Shown here piece by piece: positions 8,426-42,991 of a DNA stretch of 42,991 nt (the stretch's first letter is position 1; every line of letters begins with the position of its first letter). The position numbers and the translations under genes were made by a program. The notes under the pieces are model-generated. The model was not told where the DNA came from and searched no databases. It was given only the letters and a program-made list of their open reading frames with translations. Origin of the DNA: an uncultured Lachnospiraceae bacterium (lineage in GTDB: Bacteria > Bacillota > Clostridia > Lachnospirales > Lachnospiraceae); contig CACZIO010000023.1 of assembly GCA_902781215.1 (NCBI GenBank), forward strand, positions 1 to 42,991, read 5' to 3'.

Positions 8426-8454
8426 ATTATATACCCCCTGCAGGTATTCTGCAA
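8426..8454 (-). promoter_or_regulatory. csoR-copA promoter
   Basis: On the minus strand, TTGCAG (8454-8449), a 17-base spacer and TATAAT (8431-8426) form a good sigma-A type promoter. The spacer is almost exactly one CsoR operator. The leader would be about 145 bases. Confidence 0.8.
8431..8447. promoter_or_regulatory. CsoR operator, in the promoter spacer
   Basis: ATACCCCCTGCAGGTAT fills the spacer between -35 and -10 of the csoR promoter. A repressor bound here would block RNA polymerase directly. Confidence 0.8.
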
Positions 8455-8510
8455 GGGGCATCGAAAACTCTTACATACATGTCGAAGCGCTCCTGCGCTG
8501 AGACACGCAA

Positions 8511-8536
8511 GGAGAAAGCCCGGAACGGGTTTCTCC
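8511..8536 (-). terminator. Hairpin after the histidine kinase gene
   Basis: GGAGAAAgCCCG, loop GAA, CGGGTTTCTCC: a strong stem with one bulge, about 20 bases past the kinase stop. No clear T-run follows, so it may be a weak terminator or an mRNA 3' end hairpin. Confidence 0.5.
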
Positions 8537-8556
8537 GATGCGATCACAGGTGCCTG

Positions 8557-10146
8557 TTACAGCACACGATCCTGCTCGTCCTGGCCTCCGTCACCGATCG
8601 CCGCCGCGTCCTCTTTCTTCGGAAACCGCACCGTGATCTTTGTGCCCTCGCCAGGATGACTCTCCAGGTCCACGGAGGCCCCGTGGAGCTGTGCGGTATG
8701 CTTGACGATGGAAAGCCCCAGACCGGTGCCGCCCATCTTTCTGGAATGGCTCTTGTCGACGCGGTAGAAGCGCTCAAAGACGCGCTCCTGCTCCTCCTCC
8801 GGGATCCCGATACCGGTGTCCTCGACGGAGATACAGACCGCACCTGGCTGATCCGTGCCGGTGCCGGTCTCGTCTTCGCCGGAAGATCCGGCGCCTCCGA
8901 AGGACGGATCCGGGTCTGTACCGGACGCGCCATCGGCCTTCCCGCTGCCTTCCTTCCAGATCCGCACGAGGACGCGCCCGCCCTCGCGGTTGTATTTGAC
9001 AGCATTGTCGCAGAGGTTGTAGACCATCTCTTCGATGAGGCGGGCGGTGCCGGTGACAGTAGCCGCAGATCCTGCATGCTGCGCAGATTCCGCGGAAACT
9101 GCTCCGGCCGGCTCCACAGCCCGGGCGGGCTCTTCTATATCCGCCTCGATTTCCAGCTCGATGTGCCGTTTATCGGCCGCGGGCCTGAGGATGTCGATCA
9201 CATTCCGGGCAGTCTCTGCCAGGTCGACCTCCCCGGAATCGGGCCGCAGATCTCCCTCATCCAGCTCGGAGATCCGGATGATGTCGTTGACCAGGGCGAT
9301 GAGCCGCTGGCTCTCGCGGTAGATGTCGCCGGCGAACTCGATCATGGTCGCCTCGTCGCAGAGACCGCCGCTCATGAGCTCAGCAAAGCCGCTGATCGAG
9401 GTGAGGGGGGTCTTGAGCTCGTGGGAGACATTGGCGGAAAATTCCCGCCGCATGCGTTCCTGCTCCCGGGTCTGGGCCTCCACCGCCTCCCGGCGGACCT
9501 GCTCCTGCTCCACGGCCTGGCGGGCGATGATCTCGCGCTGCTCCAGCATGCGCTCCACCAGGGGCTGGAGCTCCGGGTAGGGGGCCGCGTTCGGCAGGTC
9601 CTCCAGCTCCATCTCGTTGACGGGGCCGGCGATGCTCTGCGCGATGCGGAAGGCGGTGGCGGCAGAGATCAGCAGGACCAGGAGGATGACCCAGAGTCCC
9701 GGACTGACCGCCAGAAAGGCGGACCGGACTGCGCTCAGGGGCCTGGAGAGCCGCAGGACAGTCCCGTCTTCACACCGGAAGGCATAGTACATCATCTGCG
9801 CGCCGCCGGATGTAGAGCGGCGGATGACCTGTCCGGAGCCCGTCTCCAGTGCCTGCCGGACCTCCCGGTCCTTCGCCTGGTTGGCGATGCCCTCCGGGTA
9901 TTCGCTGTCGTAGAGAACCTCGCCGTCCGCATCGATCCAGGTGACCCTGTTTGTATTGTCGAGACTCTGCAGGTAACGGATCCCGCCGATCTCGAGTCCG
10001 CTGGCTGCATAGGACGCCTCCGCCTGCAGGGCTGCGTAGGTCTCATCGAGCGCCCGCGAGTACTGGACCCCGAACAGGATCAAAGAACACAGGGCCAGGA
10101 CCAGGGCCCCCAGCGCAAAAGCGTGGAGAAAGATTTTTCGTGTCAT
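8557..10146 (-). CDS. phoR: PhoR-type sensor histidine kinase
   Basis: This 529-residue membrane sensor has a first helix at about 7-27 and an extracytoplasmic region to about 140 containing VTWIDADGEVLYDSEYP, typical of PhoR/PAS-like sensors. A second helix (about 150-170) and a coiled linker follow. The phospho-accepting His is H242 in NVSHELKTPLTSI, and the ATP-binding domain has DNAVKYN, DTGIGIP and GGTGLGLSIVKH. Two low-complexity insertions interrupt the ATP-binding domain (bases about 9050-9135 and 8864-8960), which is odd for so conserved a fold. The gene starts 17 bases after the regulator gene with GGAGG. The phosphate role is inferred from the paired regulator, the neighbouring phosphate transporter and the Pho-box-like repeats. 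Confidence 0.85.
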   Translation of the reverse strand: MTRKIFLHAFALGALVLALCSLILFGVQYSRALDETYAALQAEASYAASGLEIGGIRYLQSLDNTNRVTWIDADGEVLYDSEYPEGIANQAKDREVRQALETGSGQVIRRSTSGGAQMMYYAFRCEDGTVLRLSRPLSAVRSAFLAVSPGLWVILLVLLISAATAFRIAQSIAGPVNEMELEDLPNAAPYPELQPLVERMLEQREIIARQAVEQEQVRREAVEAQTREQERMRREFSANVSHELKTPLTSISGFAELMSGGLCDEATMIEFAGDIYRESQRLIALVNDIIRISELDEGDLRPDSGEVDLAETARNVIDILRPAADKRHIELEIEADIEEPARAVEPAGAVSAESAQHAGSAATVTGTARLIEEMVYNLCDNAVKYNREGGRVLVRIWKEGSGKADGASGTDPDPSFGGAGSSGEDETGTGTDQPGAVCISVEDTGIGIPEEEQERVFERFYRVDKSHSRKMGGTGLGLSIVKHTAQLHGASVDLESHPGEGTKITVRFPKKEDAAAIGDGGQDEQDRVL

Positions 10147-10163
10147 TCTGATCCTCCGGGACC

Positions 10164-10823
10164 TTATACCTTGAAGCGGTAGCCCACGCCCCTGACGGTC
10201 TCAATATAGGAGCCGGCGTCGCCGAGCTTGGCGCGGACCTTGCGGATGTGGACGTCCAGGGTCCGGTTTTCGGGTTCTGTCCCCAGGTCCCAGATCCGGT
10301 CCATAAGGACCTCCCGGGTCATGACGACGCCCTCGTTCTCCGCCAGGAGAAGGAGCAGCCGGAACTCCTTGTTGGTGAGGACAACAGGTTCGCCCCCCAC
10401 AAGGACTTCGTAGCGCTCGGGAAAAATCTGGAGCTCGCCGAAGCGCAGCTCGCTCCCGACCTCGGCGCGGCGCAGAAGGGCCCGGACGCGGGCCAGCAGT
10501 TCCATCATACCAAAGGGCTTGGTGACGTAGTCGTCCGCCCCGGCGTCGAGCCCCTCGACCCGGTCGTATTCCGCCCCCTTGGCCGTGAGAATGATCACAG
10601 GCAGGCGGGCCGTGCGGGGATCGCTGCGGAGCTGTTTGAGGATCTCCAGGCCGCTCTCCTCCGGCAGCATGATGTCCAGCAGCAGGAGGCTCGGGATCTG
10701 CGTCTGCATGGCTTCCCGGAAGGGGGTGGGGGAGGCAAATCCCTGGGTCGCGATCCCCTGGCTCTCCAGCGCGTATGTCACCAGCTTGCGGATGCTGTCA
10801 TCATCTTCCAGAATATAGATCAT
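10164..10823 (-). CDS. phoP: PhoP/PhoB-type response regulator
   Basis: The 219-residue OmpR-family regulator has an N-terminal receiver domain: acidic pocket EDDD at 6-9, phospho-accepting D50 in LLLLDIMLPEE, and the conserved Lys in YVTKPFGMMELL. The C-terminal winged helix ends in TVRGVGYRFKV, typical of PhoB/PhoP. The start at 10823 gives the family start MIYILEDD and has AGGAG about eight bases upstream; a longer frame from 10907 would add 28 residues unlike the family. It is co-transcribed with the kinase and probably drives the divergent phosphate transporter gene under phosphate starvation. Confidence 0.9.
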   Translation of the reverse strand: MIYILEDDDSIRKLVTYALESQGIATQGFASPTPFREAMQTQIPSLLLLDIMLPEESGLEILKQLRSDPRTARLPVIILTAKGAEYDRVEGLDAGADDYVTKPFGMMELLARVRALLRRAEVGSELRFGELQIFPERYEVLVGGEPVVLTNKEFRLLLLLAENEGVVMTREVLMDRIWDLGTEPENRTLDVHIRKVRAKLGDAGSYIETVRGVGYRFKV

Positions 10824-35262: not shown

Positions 35263-35453
35263 AACGTCCCGCGTCCGTATTCAAATGCGCCGAAATACAC
35301 GAATACGCATCAAAACACACCCGGGCGCATCCGGATATATCCATATTTTCTCGATTGGCTGCAGTCAATGACTGCGCATCGACTGTATCGGCTGCACCTC
35401 CTGCCGATTTTCCGGGCGGTCTGAACGGTTATGTTTTCATTCCTGTCCGAGAC

Positions 35454-35465
35454 GTGCTATACTGT
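35454..35465 (+). promoter_or_regulatory. Extended -10 promoter of the sugar-modification operon
   Basis: GTGCTATACTGT contains TGC-TATACT (-10 at 35458-35463), about 45 bases before the aminotransferase start. The -35 region is poor (TTTTCA). It is the same 12-mer as in the aroK promoter. Confidence 0.6.
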
Positions 35466-35507: not shown

Positions 35508-36641
35508 ATGATTTCCTTTAATGTTCCCCCTTTTATCGGGACAGAATTGACATATGTAAAAGAGGCCATCGACGCCCACAAGATCTGCGGCGACGGCCAG
35601 TTCACCAAAAAGTGCCACGCCTTTCTCGAGGAGAGGTTCGGCGCCCAGAAGGCCCTGCTGACCACCAGCGGGACGACCGCGCTCGAGATGGCCACCCTGC
35701 TGTGCGGACTGAAAAAAGGCGACGAGGTCCTCGTCCCCAGCTTCACCTTCTCCAGCACCGCCACCGCCATCGTCCTGACAGGCGCCACTCCCGTCTTTGT
35801 AGATATCCGCCCGGATACCATGAACATCGACGAGACGAAGCTCGAGGCTGCCATCACCGACCGGACCCGGGCCATCATGGCCGTCCACTACGCCGGCGTC
35901 GCCTGTGAGATGGACACCATCATGGACATCGCCGCCCGCCATGGCCTCAAGGTCATCGAGGACGCCGCGCAGGGCGTCATGTCCACCTACAAGGGCCGCG
36001 CCCTGGGCACCATCGGCGACTTCGGCTGCTACTCCTTCCATGAGACCAAAAACTACTCCATGGGAGAGGGCGGCGCCCTCATCATCCGCGACCCGGAGAA
36101 CAACGACGCCGCTGAGATCCTGCGCGAAAAGGGCACCAACCGCGCCCGCTTTTTCCGCGGCCAGGTCGACAAATACACCTGGGTCGACTACGGCTCCAGC
36201 TACCTGCCCAGCGACATGAACGCCGCCTACCTCTGGGCCCAGCTCCAGGAGGCCGACAGGATCAACGACGACCGCCTGGCCATCTGGAACAAATACTCAC
36301 AGGCCTTCGCGCCCCTCGCAGAGGCGGGCCGCGTCGAAGTCCCCACCATCCCGGAGGGCTGCGTCCACAACGCGCACATGTACTACCTCAAGCTCCGCGA
36401 CCTGGAGGACCGCACCGCCTTCATCCAGTACCTCAAGGACAACGGCATCGTCGCCGTCTTCCACTACATCCCCCTGCACTCCGCGCCCGCCGGCCTCAAA
36501 TTCGGCCGCTTCCACGGCGAGGACGTCTACACCACCCGCGAGAGCGACCGGCTCGTCCGCCTGCCCCTCTACTACGGCCTCACCGAAGCGGACCAGCAGC
36601 ATGTCATCGACACCGCCCTGGCCTACTTCGCTCAGAACTGA
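35508..36641 (+). CDS. wecE: dTDP-4-amino-4,6-dideoxygalactose transaminase (WecE type)
   Basis: This 377-residue PLP aminotransferase of the DegT/DnrJ/EryC1 family matches WecE in length (376). It carries the Schiff-base Lys in SFHETKNYSMGEGG, which falls at K181. LLTTSGTTALEMA and VIEDAAQGVMSTYKG hold the cofactor phosphate and ring contacts. It should convert a nucleotide-linked 4-keto-6-deoxy sugar to a 4-amino sugar with glutamate. ATG 35508 follows GGAGG by ten bases and begins the family start MISFNVPP. It is the first gene of the plus-strand cluster for an amino-sugar surface modification. The exact nucleotide sugar is not certain. Confidence 0.92.
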   Translation: MISFNVPPFIGTELTYVKEAIDAHKICGDGQFTKKCHAFLEERFGAQKALLTTSGTTALEMATLLCGLKKGDEVLVPSFTFSSTATAIVLTGATPVFVDIRPDTMNIDETKLEAAITDRTRAIMAVHYAGVACEMDTIMDIAARHGLKVIEDAAQGVMSTYKGRALGTIGDFGCYSFHETKNYSMGEGGALIIRDPENNDAAEILREKGTNRARFFRGQVDKYTWVDYGSSYLPSDMNAAYLWAQLQEADRINDDRLAIWNKYSQAFAPLAEAGRVEVPTIPEGCVHNAHMYYLKLRDLEDRTAFIQYLKDNGIVAVFHYIPLHSAPAGLKFGRFHGEDVYTTRESDRLVRLPLYYGLTEADQQHVIDTALAYFAQN

Positions 36642-36719
36642 GTACCGGCAGATACGTCCCGGGTGGTCTCCTTGCCCGCAGCCCATGTAATACAGAATCA
36701 TTCAGAAAGTAAAACATCT

Positions 36720-37751
36720 ATGACAGAAAAGACATATTCAACGGAGAACACCGGGCTCACAGCACCTGCTGACACCGCCCGGGACGCCGGGAAGAACGCA
36801 AAGAACGGAAATAACAAGAAGCTCATCAGCTTCCTCATCCCCTGCTACGCCAGTGAGGGCTCCGTCGGCCTCGTTATCGACGAGATCCGCCAGGTCGTCG
36901 CGCAGAAGCCCGATTTCGACTACCAGGTCGTCGCCGTCAATGACTGCTCTCCCGACAATGTGCTGGACGTCCTGCGGGACATCGCCGCCCGGGACCCCAG
37001 GGTCGCCGTCATCGACCTGGCCAAAAACGGCGGGCGCCACAACGCCCTGATGTGCGGCTGTCACTACGCCAAAGGCGACTATATCGTCTTCATCGACGAC
37101 GACCAGCAGTGCCCGGCCGACCGGCTCTGGGACCTCATCGACCCCCTCGAGCACGGAAATTACGACGTCGCCATCGCCCGCTACCCCAAAAAGACCCAGT
37201 CCCGCTTCAAGAACTTCGGCTCCTGGGTCAACGACCGCGTCGCCACCTGGCTTCTGGGCAAGGACCCCAGCCTGAAGTTCTCCAACTTTTCCGTGATGAA
37301 AAAGTTCGTCAAGGATGAAGTCATCAAATACACCAATCCCTACCCCTACCTCTCCGGCCTGATGCTGCGCGCGACCCGCCGCGTCATCAACGTCGACATG
37401 GAGGAAAGGGTGCGGACCATCGGCGTCGGCCACTACAACTTCCGCAAATCCCTGTCCCTGTGGCTCAACAGCTTCACCGCCTTCTCGGTCAAGCCCCTGC
37501 GCTTCGCGACCGGCATCGGTGTCCTCTGGGCCATCCTGGGAAGCCTCCTGGGCCTGCGGACCGTCATCCGCAAGCTCCTCAATCCCGCCATCCCGCTGGG
37601 ATACAGCTCCACCATGGCCGCCCTGCTCTTCTCCACCGGCATGATCATGTTCATGCTGGGCCTCATCGGAGAGTACGTCGGCCGCATCTACATATCACTC
37701 AACAACTCACCGCAGTTTGTCATCCGGGACACCATCAACCTGGACGACTGA
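36720..37751 (+). CDS. Polyprenyl-phosphate glycosyltransferase (ArnC/DPM1-like GT2)
   Basis: The 343-residue family 2 glycosyltransferase has an N-terminal polar tail (1-40), then the GT-A fold: ISFLIPCYASEGSVG, VAVNDCSPDNV, ARDPRVAVIDLAKNGGRHNALMCG split over two strands, and DDDQQCPAD as the metal-binding site. Two C-terminal membrane helices (about 262-285 and 297-325) end in LIGEYVGRIYISL, the standard C-terminus of ArnC/GtrB proteins. It should load the amino sugar made by the upstream enzyme onto undecaprenyl phosphate at the inner face. The start at 36720 has only a weak ribosome site (AGAAAG); an in-frame start at 36663 would add 19 residues and has none. Confidence 0.9.
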   Translation: MTEKTYSTENTGLTAPADTARDAGKNAKNGNNKKLISFLIPCYASEGSVGLVIDEIRQVVAQKPDFDYQVVAVNDCSPDNVLDVLRDIAARDPRVAVIDLAKNGGRHNALMCGCHYAKGDYIVFIDDDQQCPADRLWDLIDPLEHGNYDVAIARYPKKTQSRFKNFGSWVNDRVATWLLGKDPSLKFSNFSVMKKFVKDEVIKYTNPYPYLSGLMLRATRRVINVDMEERVRTIGVGHYNFRKSLSLWLNSFTAFSVKPLRFATGIGVLWAILGSLLGLRTVIRKLLNPAIPLGYSSTMAALLFSTGMIMFMLGLIGEYVGRIYISLNNSPQFVIRDTINLDD

Positions 37752-37782
37752 CTTTTGCGCATTCTTTTTATGGAGGGACACT

Positions 37783-39024
37783 ATGTCTTCGATCCATACA
37801 CCAAAGCTCCTCATCATCGGGGCGGGCGACTTCCAGCTCCCCCTGGTCCAGGAGGCGGCAAAGTCCTGTCAGGTCCTCCTGGCCGCCCCCGTCATCTCCG
37901 GGGCTTTTGACCCCTACATCTCCGACCGGCTGATCTGTGACGTCCGCGACGAGGAGACCATCCTCGCCTTTGCAAAAAAACATCAGATCGACGGCGTCAT
38001 CACAGACCAGACCGACATCGCCGTCCGCAGCGTCGCCTATGTCGCGGAGAACATGGGCCTCCCCGGCATCGGAAGCGAGACCGGCCTTCTCTTTACCGAC
38101 AAGAGCCGCATGCGCGCCCGCATGGCGGAGCTCGGCATCCATCAGCTCGAAAACCGCACCGTCGCCTCGGTCGAGGAGGCAGTTGAATTTTTCAGACACT
38201 ACGGCGGCCGCGTCATCATCAAGCCCCTGGACACCCAGGGCAGCCGCGGCGTCCAGGTCTGTGCCAGCGAGCAGGAGCTGCGGGACAAATACCCCGAGGC
38301 CGCCCGCTGGTCCGGCAACGGCAACGTCATCGTCGAGCAGTTCGCCACCGGGCGGGAGTTCGTCGTCGAATCCCTCGTCCTGGATTATGACTACCACAAC
38401 CTCTGCATCGGCGACACCCTCTATTTCGACATCCCCGATGCCTTCGCCGCCAAGAGCCGGATCTTCCCGACCACGGCGGACGAAGCCCTGCGCAGCAAGG
38501 TCCTCGCCCTCGATGAGCAGATCATCCGCGGCTTCGGCCTCCGGCAGGGCATCACACACAGCGAATACATCATGGAAGGCGACGAGGTCTACCTGATCGA
38601 GACCGCAGCCCGCGGCGGCGGCGTCTTCATCTCCTCCGACCTGATCCACCTCTCCAGCGGCCTCCACACGGAGCAGTTCCTGATCAACATCGCCCTCGGC
38701 CGCCAGAAGGAGGTCCCCGAGATCCTGCCCCAGCAGCAGTACTGCGGCTACATGGCCTTCTACCTCCCCGTCGGACGCGTCACCCGCGTCGAAGGCGTGG
38801 AGGAGGTCTGCGCCCTGCCCTTCGTCCACAGAAACCAGCTCGGCAAGCTTCATGCCGGCATGGAGAACCGCGAGGGCGCGACCGACAAGACCTCCCGCCT
38901 GGCCGTGATCGTCTCCGGCCCCACTCGGCAGGCCCTCATGGACAACATGGCCGCCGTCCGCCGGACCCTTCAGATCGAGATCCAGGCCCCCGACGGCAGC
39001 ATTCACACCCCCATCTGGGAATAA
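37783..39024 (+). CDS. ATP-grasp domain ligase
   Basis: This 413-residue protein has an N-terminal pre-ATP-grasp Rossmann fold (LLIIGAGDFQLPLVQEA) and DKSRMRARMAELG at the entry of the ATP-grasp fold. RVIIKPLDTQGSRGV supplies the ATP lysine and glycine loop, and VYLIETAARGGG is the metal-binding segment, with ETAAR where E.N.R is usual. The C-terminal part resembles carboxylases of the PurK/CarB type. Such enzymes join a carboxylate to an amine through an acyl-phosphate. Between an amino-sugar transferase and flippase-like genes it could attach an amino acid or other acid to the sugar amine; this is inference. GGAGGG lies five bases before ATG 37783. Confidence 0.85.
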   Translation: MSSIHTPKLLIIGAGDFQLPLVQEAAKSCQVLLAAPVISGAFDPYISDRLICDVRDEETILAFAKKHQIDGVITDQTDIAVRSVAYVAENMGLPGIGSETGLLFTDKSRMRARMAELGIHQLENRTVASVEEAVEFFRHYGGRVIIKPLDTQGSRGVQVCASEQELRDKYPEAARWSGNGNVIVEQFATGREFVVESLVLDYDYHNLCIGDTLYFDIPDAFAAKSRIFPTTADEALRSKVLALDEQIIRGFGLRQGITHSEYIMEGDEVYLIETAARGGGVFISSDLIHLSSGLHTEQFLINIALGRQKEVPEILPQQQYCGYMAFYLPVGRVTRVEGVEEVCALPFVHRNQLGKLHAGMENREGATDKTSRLAVIVSGPTRQALMDNMAAVRRTLQIEIQAPDGSIHTPIWE

Positions 39025-39042
39025 TCTTCAGGAGGTACCTTT

Positions 39043-39450
39043 TTGCTCAGAAAATTTCTCGACAAGCGGCGCAACGTCTTTCTCCTCGCCGCCTTCGCTG
39101 TCTTCATGGAGAGCCTGACCTCTCCCTGCCTCAAGATCGGCTCCCAGCGCTACGACACCTTCTCGGCGGGTTATTTCTTCTGGTTCGGCCTCGCCGTCGT
39201 CATCCTCGGCATCTACGCCGTCTGCTGGCAGCTCATCCTGGAGCGCATCCCACTGACCACCGCCTACCTGCGCCGCGGATTCAGCTATATCCTGCTCTTC
39301 GTCTGGTCCATGCTGATCTTCCACGAGACCATCACCCCCAAACAGATCATCGGCATCATCGTGATCTCCCTGGGCATGGTGATCAGCGTTTCCGACGAAC
39401 GAAAACCGGACAAAAAAGAACCGGCTGAGGGCGGGACCCAGGAGGTCTGA
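39043..39450 (+). CDS. Small EmrE/ArnE-like membrane protein, first of a pair
   Basis: The 135-residue four-helix protein of the DMT/SMR superfamily has helices at about 11-30, 43-63, 72-95 and 98-118, and a charged cytoplasmic tail. The TTG start at 39043 is well supported by AGGAGG eight bases upstream, 18 bases after the ATP-grasp stop. IPLTTAYLRRGFSYILLFVWS and ITPKQIIGIIVISLGMVIS match the last two helices of SMR proteins. It is likely one half of a heterodimer with the next gene, like ArnE/ArnF, which flip undecaprenyl-phosphate-aminoarabinose. Confidence 0.82.
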   Translation: MLRKFLDKRRNVFLLAAFAVFMESLTSPCLKIGSQRYDTFSAGYFFWFGLAVVILGIYAVCWQLILERIPLTTAYLRRGFSYILLFVWSMLIFHETITPKQIIGIIVISLGMVISVSDERKPDKKEPAEGGTQEV

Positions 39451-39486
39451 TAACCGGAACCTGATTCCCGTTACCCTGTTGTAAGC

Positions 39487-39526
39487 AGCGGTCAGCGAAC
39501 ATCACCCTCTGTTCCATACCGCTTTT
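39487..39526 (+). terminator. Weak hairpin between the two flippase-like genes
   Basis: AGCGGT (39487-39492) pairs with ACCGCT (39518-39523) followed by TTTT. The loop is long (25 bases), so at most a partial attenuator. Confidence 0.3.
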
Positions 39527-39561
39527 CCGCATAATATCTTCACAAAAGGAGCTTTGAATCC

Positions 39562-39918
39562 ATGTCCTCGATCCTCACCCCGCAGGTCTGCTACGCGGCC
39601 GCCATCGCCGGCGCCTTCATCACTGCGCTCAGCCAGATCCTGCTCAAGACCCAGGCCAACACGACCGGCGACAAGGGCTTTTTCAGCAAATTCCTCAACG
39701 TCCGCGTCATCGCGTCCTACGGCCTCCTCTTCCTGACCCTGGCCATCAACCAGGTTGCCCTGCGCTACGTTCCCCTCTCCGTCATGCCCTGCATCACCGC
39801 GACCAGCTTCGTCTGGGTCTTCGTCATGGGCGCCCTCATTCTCAAGGAGAAGGTCTCCCCCCGCAAGGCCCTCGGCGTCGCCATCATCATCGCCGGCGTC
39901 ATCATTTCCAGGATCTGA
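39562..39918 (+). CDS. Small EmrE/ArnF-like membrane protein, second of a pair
   Basis: This 118-residue four-helix protein has the EamA/SMR pattern: CYAAAIAGAFITALSQILLK with the typical early polar residues, LFLTLAINQVALRYVPLSV, CITATSFVWVFVMGALILKE and KALGVAIIIAGVIIS. GLLF..A..Q.ALRYVPLS resembles ArnE/ArnF helix 2. AAAGGAG about 13 bases before the ATG is somewhat far. With the preceding gene it would form the two-subunit flippase for the lipid-linked sugar. Confidence 0.85.
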   Translation: MSSILTPQVCYAAAIAGAFITALSQILLKTQANTTGDKGFFSKFLNVRVIASYGLLFLTLAINQVALRYVPLSVMPCITATSFVWVFVMGALILKEKVSPRKALGVAIIIAGVIISRI

Positions 39919-40052
39919 CCGGGCTCTGCCTCAAACTGCAGCGAGCGGTTCCTGCTGATCATCAGCCTCTTTCACGCCCCGCACCATCGCTCCCGGATCC
40001 GGCAGACTTTGACTGCTATCGACTGCCCACCAGCTTCAACACGGAGGAAGCC

Positions 40053-41846
40053 ATGCACGCTACGATCAAAGAATACTCTGAAAAAATCACGAGCAGGAAA
40101 TCCTACTGGATCCCCCTGCTCTTTTATACATTCGGAGCCTACGGCTTCTCCATGCTCAACCGCACCGTCGGCGCGGACGACCTCGCCACCTCCCTCTATG
40201 TGGACGGCACCGTCTGGCTCTCCGAGCTGCGCTGGGGCGCCGTCCTGTGGAAAAAGCTCTTCTCCTTCGGCGACTGCGTCCCCTACCTGGACAAATTCCT
40301 GTCCGTCTGCTTCCTCATGCTGGCGGGCACTGCCTTCGCCTGCCTGCTCTACACCATGAACGGCAGAAAGGACCGGGTCTGGCTCTACACGGTCGCCGCC
40401 TGCTCCTTCATCACCTACCCCATCATCTGCGAGATCTGGGAATTCACCTGTGGCGGCACCATCATCGTCCCCGGCGACTTCTTCTGCACCTTCGTCCTGC
40501 TGCTCTGGCTCCTGCATGGGCAGACAGATATCAGATCCGGTCATTCCGCTGACACCGCTGACACCGCGGACGCCGGTACTCATGAAAAAAACGACGGGCA
40601 GCGTTATGCAAAGAGCGCGGGAAAAAGGCCTTCCGGCAAATACTCCTCCCGCATCCGGGGCGGCTCCGCTTCCGGCATTCCCTTTCTCTCCGACGCCCGC
40701 AAGCTCCTCCTCGCCGGCATCCTCCTGACCCCCGTGATCTCCAGCGCCGAATCCATCGCGCCTGTCTACGTCACGACGGTCCTGATCATGCTCTTCTACC
40801 GCCACTGCGTCCGCCGGGTCCGCCCCGGTGAAAAGACCGCCTGGTTCATGGAGGGCGTCTACTATGCCATTCCCCTCATCATCGCCTTCATCCTGCGCCT
40901 GGTGATCGGCTACGGCATCATGGCCGTCCTGGGCCTGCACTACCAGCACACAGGCGCCACCCGCATCGAATGGCCCCTGTCGGGCGCCCAGCTCGCGGGC
41001 CTCTTCAAGGGCATCCTGATCGACTACGGCGTCGCCGCCCTGATCAACCTGCCCATCACGATCTTCATCGTCTGCACCGTCCTGTTCGCCGTCCGCTGCA
41101 TCCTGCTCGCCGTCCGCCGCCGCAGCCCTCTCCCCCTTTTCCTGGGGATCTGCATCGGCATCTCCCTCTTCCTGATCACCCTGATCCAGGGAGCCGTCAT
41201 GTACTACCGGACCGCGATCACCCTCATGGTCTTCTGCGCCTTTGTCTTCTACCTCTTCGCGGAGGACTTCTGCCGCTGGATCAACGACGGGATCCTGAAC
41301 CGGCGCCGCCTGCAGGCCGCCCTGGGCCGCTGCGGCATCGTCCTGCTGCTCTTCATCACCTGGCGCCAGGCAGCCCACCTGCACCGCTTCCTGGCCCTCA
41401 ACAACCAGCGCTACGACAACGAGGCAGCCGTCATGCAGCAGATCGGCTACACCCTCTCCACAGAGTATGACACCTCCAAGCCCCTGATCTTCGTAGGCGA
41501 CTTCTCCAACGGAGACGCCCTCTACAGCATCACCCACGACCTGGGTGAGACCAGACAGGGTGCCCTCTACCGCCGCATCCGCCACAGGATCGACGGCACA
41601 GAGACCTGGAAATCCCCCGCCCTCGTCCAGACCACCGTCTCCTCCGCCATCGACTGGTATCACTGGGAGTTCGACGGCCGGCTCATGGGCAGATTCCTGG
41701 CCTACTACGGCTACGACTTCGACGTCCGCGCCCTCTCCCGCGAGGAGCTGGAGCCCTACAACGCAGAGGCCGCTGAGCTCGGCATGAAGCCCTTCCAGAT
41801 CATCGACCGCGGTGACTACCTGCTCATCTGCCTCGGCCGCCTGTAA
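40053..41846 (+). CDS. GtrII-like polytopic membrane glycosyltransferase
   Basis: The 597-residue protein has about ten to eleven membrane helices and a C-terminal cytoplasmic or external domain (about 450-597). The GtrII glucosyltransferase features are near the N-terminus: LFYTFGAYGFSMLNR, then GADDLATSLY and ELRWGAVLWKKLF (acidic pair and RWG). GT-C enzymes of this kind take a sugar from a polyprenyl-phosphate donor outside the cell and attach it to a polymer. A polar insert (bases about 40525-40695, Asp/Thr/Ser/Lys-rich) interrupts the helices. GGAGGAAGCC before ATG 40053 fixes the start. It is the last gene of the cluster and the likely final transferase. Confidence 0.83.
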   Translation: MHATIKEYSEKITSRKSYWIPLLFYTFGAYGFSMLNRTVGADDLATSLYVDGTVWLSELRWGAVLWKKLFSFGDCVPYLDKFLSVCFLMLAGTAFACLLYTMNGRKDRVWLYTVAACSFITYPIICEIWEFTCGGTIIVPGDFFCTFVLLLWLLHGQTDIRSGHSADTADTADAGTHEKNDGQRYAKSAGKRPSGKYSSRIRGGSASGIPFLSDARKLLLAGILLTPVISSAESIAPVYVTTVLIMLFYRHCVRRVRPGEKTAWFMEGVYYAIPLIIAFILRLVIGYGIMAVLGLHYQHTGATRIEWPLSGAQLAGLFKGILIDYGVAALINLPITIFIVCTVLFAVRCILLAVRRRSPLPLFLGICIGISLFLITLIQGAVMYYRTAITLMVFCAFVFYLFAEDFCRWINDGILNRRRLQAALGRCGIVLLLFITWRQAAHLHRFLALNNQRYDNEAAVMQQIGYTLSTEYDTSKPLIFVGDFSNGDALYSITHDLGETRQGALYRRIRHRIDGTETWKSPALVQTTVSSAIDWYHWEFDGRLMGRFLAYYGYDFDVRALSREELEPYNAEAAELGMKPFQIIDRGDYLLICLGRL

Positions 41847-42147: not shown

Positions 42148-42991
42148 TTAGTAGACGATAACACGTGTCTTGGTCGGTGTGACCTGGTAGATAAACTTCG
42201 CGTCCGCGAGAGGCAGGCGGATGCAGCTGTTGGATTTGCTCTTTCCAAGAGATCCGTCTTTCACCTTTGCGGTCGCAGGGTTTCTGCTTCCCTTCCTGTA
42301 CAGGATCGAGTGGAAATAGTTGCCTGCGCTGATCCTGGTCGCATAGAAAGCGGTGGAAGCGGAGAAATCCTTGTATCCGTGCTTCTTGTTGGTCTTGTGA
42401 TTCAGTGTCCAGGAACCGGAAGGGCTGGGTGTGGACTTCTTGCCGATCGTGCACTTGATATTTCTGCGGATGCAGGTCCATTTTCCTTTGGAGCCCTGGT
42501 AAATGTTGATGTTGTGTTGGCCCTTGTTGACCAGGATCAGATATCTGGTACTGCTGCTGTACTTCTGCGCTTTTGCATCCATGCCATAGGCATCTTTTCC
42601 GCCTGCAGCCGCCGTACTCGGAGCCGCTGCCGGCGCCGCACCGAGGTACTGAAGAGAAGTATCCGCAAGAACCTTGTAACGGTAGCCATTGGCAGTCACC
42701 ACAGTATTGGCCGTGCGTACCTGCCTGCCGGAGCCGGGTGTGAAATAATAGTACTTAGCCCCTATTTTGACAAGTCCGGTCACCATAGCCCCACCATTAG
42801 GATTCAGGTAATAGTAGGCTCCGCCGATATTTCTGAGACCTGTCAGAAGCGCACCATACTTGACCGGGCTTGCGCCTGTGTTAGTGCTGGCGTAGAACCA
42901 TTTATTGTTCTTTTTGACCCAGCCTTTCTGGACATAGCCGTTCTTGTCAAAGGCATATACATAGCCGTTGATCATTTTGAGCGTGTTCTTA
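42148..42991 (-). CDS. L,D-transpeptidase with cell-wall-binding repeats (5' part outside the window)
   Basis: The frame is open through the right edge, reading KNTLK before the first ATG in view (42975), so the gene begins beyond the window. At least 280 residues are present. Cell-wall-binding repeats come first (NGYVYAFDKNGYVQKGW, GGAYYYLNPNGGAMVTG, GAKYYYFTPGSGRQV). After an Ala-rich linker follows a YkuD domain (about 135-275): RYLILVNKGQHNINIYQG, TPSPSGSW, FHSILY, and active-site SNSCIRLPLADAKFIY. The usual motif is SHGCIR; here Asn-Ser replaces His-Gly while the catalytic Cys and Arg remain. It forms 3-3 crosslinks or attaches proteins to peptidoglycan. Confidence 0.88.
   Translation of the reverse strand, partial: KNTLKMINGYVYAFDKNGYVQKGWVKKNNKWFYASTNTGASPVKYGALLTGLRNIGGAYYYLNPNGGAMVTGLVKIGAKYYYFTPGSGRQVRTANTVVTANGYRYKVLADTSLQYLGAAPAAAPSTAAAGGKDAYGMDAKAQKYSSSTRYLILVNKGQHNINIYQGSKGKWTCIRRNIKCTIGKKSTPSPSGSWTLNHKTNKKHGYKDFSASTAFYATRISAGNYFHSILYRKGSRNPATAKVKDGSLGKSKSNSCIRLPLADAKFIYQVTPTKTRVIVY

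Follow-up and report, generated by a model that had tools for sequence, protein, structure and literature searches.

A conserved operon of a Lachnospiraceae bacterium that most likely encodes a system for transmembrane glycosylation with Fuc4N, including capping by an amino acid ligase

Glycosylation of wall polymers in Gram-positive bacteria relies on a GT-A enzyme, a flippase of the GtrA or Wzx type and a GT-C enzyme, as outlined in the accessible part of PMC8035078. In the available excerpt of PMC7389260, ArnE and ArnF are cited as small multidrug resistance (SMR) proteins thought to flip a lipid-linked sugar. The dTDP-Fuc4N (dTDP-4-amino-4,6-dideoxygalactose) arm of enterobacterial common antigen consists of RffH, RffG, WecE and RffC. 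In C. difficile RT027, mutants in an ATP-grasp protein (PF13535) lose the terminal peptidylamido sugar of flagellin, a 3-amino-3,6-dideoxygalactose (Fuc3N), according to the accessible sections of PMC5207246 and PMC5207245. Here, we describe a six-gene operon of an uncultured Lachnospiraceae bacterium (CACZIO010000023.1, contig 23 of a 3.33 Mb draft genome with 132 contigs and 94.7% completeness), which most likely encodes a transmembrane glycosylation system for Fuc4N that includes a capping step by an amino acid ligase. The whole stretch of DNA analysed, 42,991 nucleotides long, is referred to as the window; L and G labels denote loci and genus-sample genomes, respectively.

The open reading frame (ORF) listing gives six plus-strand ORFs that fill 35508-41846, with the positions and order reported in a preliminary description of the window, whose claim of a pathway operon was likewise upheld. 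GT2 denotes glycosyltransferase family 2.

35508..36641, plus strand: wecE, predicted dTDP-4-keto-6-deoxyglucose 4-aminotransferase yielding dTDP-Fuc4N (NF008687, TIGR02379, E. coli identity, PDB)
36720..37751, plus strand: gt2, membrane GT2 of the GtrB/PgfS/ArnC kind, putative polyprenyl-phosphate sugar synthase (PF00535, PHROG)
37783..39024, plus strand: ATP-grasp carboxylate-amine ligase of predicted L-amino acid ligase fold, putatively aminoacylating the 4-amino group
39043..39450, plus strand: smrA, SMR/EamA-type half transporter, putative flippase subunit (EamA and ArnE models)
39562..39918, plus strand: smrB, partner SMR/EamA-type half transporter (EamA and ArnE models)
40053..41846, plus strand: gtrII, putative lipid-to-outside-acceptor sugar transferase (PF14264)

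Gaps between the genes measure 18-134 bases, and a GGAG-type run was read clearly ahead of five of the six starts and weakly ahead of that of the GT2 gene, which has an alternative GTG start at 36663; smrA starts with TTG. All six genes are under purifying selection (nonsynonymous divergence 0.04-0.22 and synonymous divergence 0.64-1.39 in aligned stretches against two relatives, with synonymous sites near saturation).

Comparison with relatives showed that this arrangement is conserved. The genus sample comprised 61 genomes, 27 with an ortholog of the ATP-grasp ligase (at least 64% identity, own genome included) and 34 without. Among the 26 ligase-bearing relatives of the same genus, 22 carry wecE-GT2-ligase-smrA-smrB in this order on one strand (with one extra gene in between in L036); as for the other four, the G174 locus runs into the end of its contig, the genes of G171 are spread over two contigs, G185 retains only a smrB remnant, and the ligase of G192 is located elsewhere. 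Of the six-gene row given in the preliminary description, the five-gene core is thus fixed, whereas gtrII, which follows this core in 9 of the 26 relatives, is less so. A gtrII homologue (E 1e-15) was found in 21 of the 61 genomes, eight of which belong to the 34 without ligase. The named loci, the best 80 of 81 passing a ligase profile search, fall into identity bins of 36 (at least 64%), 15 (45-64%) and 29 (below 45%); many of them overlap with the genus sample in the same or near species, and the two counts are not independent. In the 36 close loci, the ligase strand carries wecE in 31, the GT2 gene in 32, smrA in 30 and smrB in 31, and the ftsH and aroK genes flanking the operon in the window recur in only 10 and 13. 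The wecE gene and the SMR pair were each found in 8 of the 15 intermediate loci, and a gene at least 45% identical to WecE in 12 of the 29 distant ones. The check on gene order proposed in the preliminary description therefore found the genes together rather than scattered, in 22 of 26 relatives as well as in most of the close named loci, and the conserved order is not due to chance. The relatives are mostly rumen or gut metagenome genomes titled Lachnospiraceae, and these titles agree with the Clostridia-type host assumed before; they also include the strain Sarcina sp. DSM 11001 (L068; Clostridiaceae at NCBI), which carries all six genes in the same order.

WecE-family enzymes convert dTDP-4-keto-6-deoxyglucose to dTDP-Fuc4N. 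The aminotransferase of the operon matches WecE over its full length and scores above the cut-offs of both WecE models (NF008687, 626.4 bits, cut-off 375; TIGR02379, 624.4 bits, cut-off 434.85), confirming its earlier naming as WecE-type. It shares 66% identity with E. coli WecE across 376 amino acids, and its best PDB sequence match is 4piw, named dTDP-4-amino-4,6-dideoxygalactose transaminase. An assignment to ArnB was rejected (NF008658, 193.7 bits against a cut-off of 631; 34% identity versus 66% to WecE). The genome encodes one RmlB (501.2 bits, cut-off 365.1) on contig C35, beside an RmlC gene, and two RmlA (463.6 and 460.7 bits, cut-off 360.65) outside the operon, and 23 of the 27 genus genomes with the ligase have an RmlB above cut-off. 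In relatives, rmlA and/or rmlB lie close to the cluster in L036 (rmlA within it), L136, L105 and L112, and 11 of the 36 close loci carry an rmlB on the strand opposite the cluster. One strand of L136 carries wecE, GT2, ligase, a PaaK-like gene, smrA, smrB, rmlA and rmlB, with others interspersed. Because of the WecE identity, the RmlA and RmlB of the genome and the rml genes near relatives' clusters, Fuc4N is expected rather than 4-amino-4-deoxy-L-arabinose (L-Ara4N); judging from sequence, the sugar should be Fuc4N, a TDP-hexosamine as in enterobacterial common antigen. The operon shares with the dTDP-Fuc4N arm of that antigen the RmlA/RmlB/WecE chemistry, but differs in its export machinery, in its ATP-grasp ligase and in the absence of an RffC match: E. 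coli RffC, the Fuc4N acetyltransferase, gave no match at E 0.01 in the draft genome, where other N-acyltransferases were not searched for. The same search matched in 10 of 14 control genomes, above cut-off only in E. coli. Fuc4N has already been predicted for Clostridium butyricum capsule or flagellin glycan loci (PMC12342839, PMC13317340), and the word ATP-grasp is absent from the main texts of these two papers in so far as they were accessible.

The ATP-grasp gene, to which no role had been given before, is the distinctive part of the operon. Its product matches ATP-grasp_4 (PF13535, 31.5 bits, cut-off 27) and, slightly below cut-off, the LAL_C2 domain (27.7 bits, cut-off 29.4); its predicted model is most similar to an L-amino acid ligase and shows the fold and the domain layout of amino acid ligases. 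Since the model has this fold and RffC has no match, the ligase is predicted to aminoacylate the 4-amino group of Fuc4N. The closest described parallel is type B flagellin of C. difficile RT027, for which the available sections of PMC5207245 and PMC5207246 likewise describe a PF13535 ATP-grasp protein needed for an amide-capped terminal amino-dideoxygalactose. This likeness is one of description, not of compared sequences, and the C. difficile system is unlike the operon in its Fuc3N, FdtB, taurinyl-Ala-Gly cap, FemAB-like and cyclodeaminase partners and flagellin target. In line with a sugar-linked role, 64 of the 80 named loci, drawn from several phyla, have a DegT aminotransferase no more than 9 kb from the ligase, and 63 have one on the ligase strand; as the own genome has only seven DegT matches (two of them strong), chance proximity is about 1-4% by simple arithmetic. 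Wider searches found the ligase in 2 of 150 family-sample genomes (E 1e-40) and 5 of 295 order-sample genomes (E 1e-60), the own genome being counted in both, so that it is common in the genus (27 of 61) and rare in the samples around it. Near residue 139, the ligases of L053 and L030 carry species-specific insertions, of up to about 28 residues in L053, and the same region splits the ligase match in several other genomes. In the library searched, we found no paper pairing ATP-grasp with Fuc4N, which does not prove its absence from print, and a search for wecE and Lachnospiraceae turned up only a cattle growth study.

The remaining genes resemble known membrane glycosylation machinery. The GT2 protein matches PF00535 (94.7 bits, cut-off 23.3) and a GtrB-like PHROG (183.5), and, below cut-off, the PgfS (136.2) and ArnC models (108.7, cut-off 529); it has two C-terminal hydropathy peaks, and its best PDB match is sll0501, which we take to be a GtrB homologue. 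By family, it would be a membrane-linked GT-A type polyprenyl-phosphate sugar synthase. The earlier label of an ArnC-like transferase thus holds for the polyprenyl-phosphate GT2 type but not for ArnC identity. Both SMR proteins score just above the EamA cut-off of 28.2 (smrA 29.9, smrB 28.3 bits), and their best NCBIfam model is ArnE (40.8 and 35.5 bits, below its cut-off of 92), in keeping with the two ArnE/F-sized SMR proteins noted previously. Each has four hydropathy peaks and aligns with E. coli ArnE (smrA, 31% over 68 amino acids; smrB, 35% over 60), and the pair seems to fill the flippase slot. Neither the SMR proteins (phmmer) nor the gtrII profile found a PDB sequence match at E 5. 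GtrII family membership was confirmed (PF14264, 46.1 bits, cut-off 30, covering residues 32-131 only); the protein has ten hydropathy peaks, and N36 R37 T38 and A41 D42 D43 L44 are invariant across 10 orthologs. Its structure prediction was poor (mean predicted local distance difference test, pLDDT, 44.5) and was not used for fold search. Among the relatives read, L044 alone carries a 576-codon membrane-protein ORF (8447-10174, minus strand) between smrB and rmlB, a candidate for a transferase replacing gtrII.

This arrangement is like the multi-component systems CsbB/GtcA/YfhO and GtlA/GtcA/GtlB in having, by family, a GT-A type polyprenyl-phosphate sugar synthase, a putative small flippase and a putative polytopic transferase; it differs from them in carrying an ArnE-related SMR pair in place of a GtrA or Wzx flippase, and in adding an amino-sugar synthesis gene and an ATP-grasp ligase. 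Like Arn, it combines an aminotransferase, a GT2 (25% identical to ArnC), two SMR subunits (31-35% to ArnE over 60-68 residues) and a polytopic transferase in one operon. Unlike Arn, it has WecE instead of ArnB, a TDP-hexose instead of a UDP-pentose and an amino acid ligase, it is without ArnA, ArnD and ArnT, and no lipid A is expected. The statement that the genes carry out the same steps as ArnB, ArnC, ArnE/F and ArnT was accordingly not supported, and membership in the Arn pathway, judged by ArnB, ArnA, ArnD and ArnT, was rejected: E. coli ArnA and ArnD found no match at E 1 among the six operon proteins, to which that search was limited, and gtrII gave no ArnT match at E 1 and matched no NCBIfam model at E 0.01. 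The likeness to Arn extends to the export half of the operon but not to its sugar half.

Taken together, we consider it probable, though well short of certain, that the operon serves to synthesise a Fuc4N unit, to cap and export it and to attach it outside, and we infer the substrates, the flippase role and the acceptor as follows. RmlA and RmlB, encoded elsewhere in the genome, would supply dTDP-4-keto-6-deoxyglucose, which WecE would aminate to dTDP-Fuc4N. In place of RffC, the ATP-grasp ligase would join an amino acid carboxyl to the 4-amino group, and, where a PaaK-like ligase is present, a further acyl group may go onto that amino acid. The GT2 would transfer the sugar to polyprenyl phosphate, before or after capping, the SMR pair would flip the lipid-linked sugar, and the GtrII-family protein would move it to a wall polymer or a surface protein. 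For the product to be cationic, the amine would have to remain free or the cap to contribute a new one. No single part of this system is new, and the combination seems not to have been described before.

The PaaK-like ligase was met in L036, where a gene for an adenylate-forming ligase lies between the ATP-grasp gene and smrA. Its name rests on NCBIfam PaaK models far below their cut-offs (E about 1e-14 for L036) together with PDB matches (phenylacetate-CoA ligase, 7.5e-11); no Pfam family matched the proteins of L036, L092, L112 and the own genome, and that of L136 showed only a weak AMP-binding hit (17.6 bits, below the cut-off of 29.9). In 13 of the 80 named loci, such a homologue begins at most 200 bases after the ligase. 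An ortholog of at least 68% identity is present in 26 of the 27 ligase-bearing genus genomes versus none of the 34 others; the lone ligase-bearing genome without it is G171, which is 77% complete. Seven of the 34 carry a divergent PaaK-like homologue (46-58%), and in G168, G169, G181 and G206 about 400 bases separate one from an ATP-grasp gene that is likewise divergent (24-28%). In the biosynthesis of dapdiamides (DdaF, DdaG) and E-64, an ATP-grasp enzyme and an adenylate-forming amide synthetase act in turn, each of DdaG and DdaF forming one amide bond (PMC12568646, accessible portion). The genes here are alike in combining these two ligase types, but the dapdiamide product is a free antibiotic, and the scores against the DdaF model (ATP-grasp protein, 26.1 bits, cut-off 840) and the DdaG model (L136 PaaK-like protein, 31.6 bits, cut-off 700) are weak. 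Based on this ligase-pair logic and on the ligase pairing seen here, the two stand-alone amide ligases might together furnish Fuc4N with an N-acyl-aminoacyl cap, and the ArnE-like SMR pair might export the capped sugar, as a polyprenyl-phosphate monosaccharide, in a Gram-positive-type cell, an extension that we put forward tentatively and regard as more doubtful than the capping step itself. 

In the own genome, the PaaK-like gene (C42:27261-28646) is unlinked to the operon. A UDP-galactopyranose mutase gene stands immediately before it (C42:26087-28646 for both; L177 6088-8647), and a match to this mutase also occurs in L179 and L189, two of the eight other ortholog loci compared, which hints at a galactofuranose-containing glycan. 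A gene read as HIT-family precedes the divergent ATP-grasp/PaaK-like pair in L184 and L186 and the unlinked ligase ortholog in L087, so the location of these three may be shared. Related loci that combine a ligase and an aminotransferase were met on contigs with the labels Coriobacteriia, Deltaproteobacteria, Bacteroidota and Methanolobus. Among L112, L113 and L114, rmlA, GT2, ATP-grasp, PaaK-like and wecE matches are clustered on the Deltaproteobacteria-labelled contigs, and on the one labelled Methanolobus an ATP-grasp homologue adjoins a DegT-type gene.

Loci without the ligase revealed which parts are separable. A WecE match at E 1e-60 is found in 59 of the 61 genus genomes, and the ligase-less wecE loci of close relatives are laid out as gtrII-wecE-GT2-smrA-smrB (L141, L142, which lies in G192, and L147), wecE-GT2-rmlA-gtrII (L143, L144) or wecE-GT2 alone (L145, L146). 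In 22 further loci (L149-L161, L163-L166, L168-L171, L173), wecE and a GT2 gene of 40-47% identity lie about 2-3 kb apart with no SMR or ligase match; their GT2s form a separate tree group (95/87), and L153 and L155, the two read at ORF level, also encode a large membrane protein. L148, L162, L167, L172 and L174, mostly contig ends, show no GT2 at wecE. These layouts suggest that wecE and GT2 are the common core, with ligase, SMR pair and gtrII as modules. In trees of 65 GT2 and 67 WecE rows, from which L048, L055 and short matches were left out, the label 'has ligase' needs 4 and 5 changes versus 21.8 and 22.7 when shuffled, although near-copies group together in any case; the label 'without' was also given to L136 and L131, whose ligases fall below the 45% identity cut.

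Several observations weigh against a Fuc4N export system with ligase capping. L141-L147 lack the ligase but retain wecE and GT2, and five of them also have gtrII and/or the SMR pair, so that capping would be optional or done otherwise. No wecE lies near the ligase in 3 of the 36 close loci (L086, L087 and L088; flanks of 9 kb on both sides in L086 and L088, upstream only in L087). The negative RffC result covers E. coli RffC only, in a 94.7%-complete draft. The SMR pair need not be the flippase, because the own genome has two GtrA-family genes, and of the 27 genomes with the ligase just 13 have a gtrII homologue (E 1e-15). The Fisher p of 2e-16 for the joint presence of the two ligases carries no correction for phylogeny.

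Some of these points would suit other explanations. The ligase-less relatives, together with the resemblance of the SMR pair to ArnE above all, would fit an Arn analogue in which a free-amine, cationic Fuc4N lowers cationic peptide binding and the ATP-grasp protein has another role or adds a temporary cap like the Arn formyl group; yet the operon has no ArnD-like protein, 22 of 26 relatives preserve the ordered arrangement of ligase and SMR genes, and nothing in the analysis ties the operon to peptide resistance, and we regard this analogue as unlikely. Fuc4N might also be a backbone residue of a capsule-like polymer or O-glycan chain instead of a single externally added unit. Such a role would agree with the Fuc4N predicted in Clostridium butyricum capsule and flagellin glycans (PMC12342839 and PMC13317340, accessible parts) and with the distant loci L110 and L121, whose ORFs read like polysaccharide gene clusters. 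Against it, the neighbours in the window (FtsH-like, shikimate kinase, L,D-transpeptidase) are not polymer genes, an argument that is weak because the relatives' flanks were searched for the query genes only and read in part; we hold a backbone role to be improbable.

The two remaining alternatives detach part of the operon from the sugar. That the ATP-grasp and PaaK-like ligases belong to a small-peptide pathway, with a merely historical linkage to wecE, would be consistent with the free antibiotic made by the DdaG/DdaF pair (PMC12568646, accessible portion), with the unlinked PaaK-like gene of the own genome, with the ligase lying away from wecE in L086-L088 and with the four relatives in which it stands beside the divergent PaaK-like gene, likewise away from wecE. 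Against this stands the DegT aminotransferase found at most 9 kb from the ligase in 64 of the 80 loci, which come from several phyla, and we think such a pathway quite unlikely. The SMR pair, finally, could be an ordinary drug or cation exporter that sits in the operon by happenstance, as weak matches to the EbrA SMR efflux model (23.4 and 23.9 bits) and a first-helix glutamate in smrA of the window, presumably resembling the EmrE glutamate, would suggest. However, ArnE is the best NCBIfam model for both proteins, 22 of 26 relatives have the pair downstream of the ligase, and in a 12-row alignment the glutamate occurs in three of five smrA rows (window, L036, L092), is replaced in two (Gln in L096, Phe in L136) and is found in none of five smrB rows, so that an exporter placed there by chance is very unlikely.

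The surroundings of the operon comprise a gene read as FtsH-like, a shikimate kinase gene (aroK) and, convergent to the cluster at 42148-42990 on the minus strand, an L,D-transpeptidase with choline-binding-type repeats. In 18 of the 36 close loci, a match of at least 30% to this L,D-transpeptidase occurs no more than 9 kb from the ligase, a count that may include matches to the repeats, and a link between such repeats and the glycan is only a thought. A promoter scan returned three promoter-like sites versus 1.6 expected, one of them ahead of wecE at 35434-35463, which carries little weight given these numbers; the terminator-like sites (11 versus 4.3) were not used in the analysis. The Rfam scan of the window gave nothing above the gathering score, the window holds no tRNA, and PADLOC defence models had no match at E 0.001 to the six proteins.

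If the proposed Fuc4N system with its amino-acid-ligase capping step is real, Clostridia of gut and rumen would possess a surface sugar that is capped with an amino acid and genetically defined, there would be a link between stand-alone amide ligases and the capping of glycans, and an ArnE-like SMR pair would act in a context other than lipid A modification. Sarcina sp. DSM 11001, a culture-collection strain with all six genes, makes these predictions testable, and the gene set would then serve as a marker for predicting such glycans in genomes.

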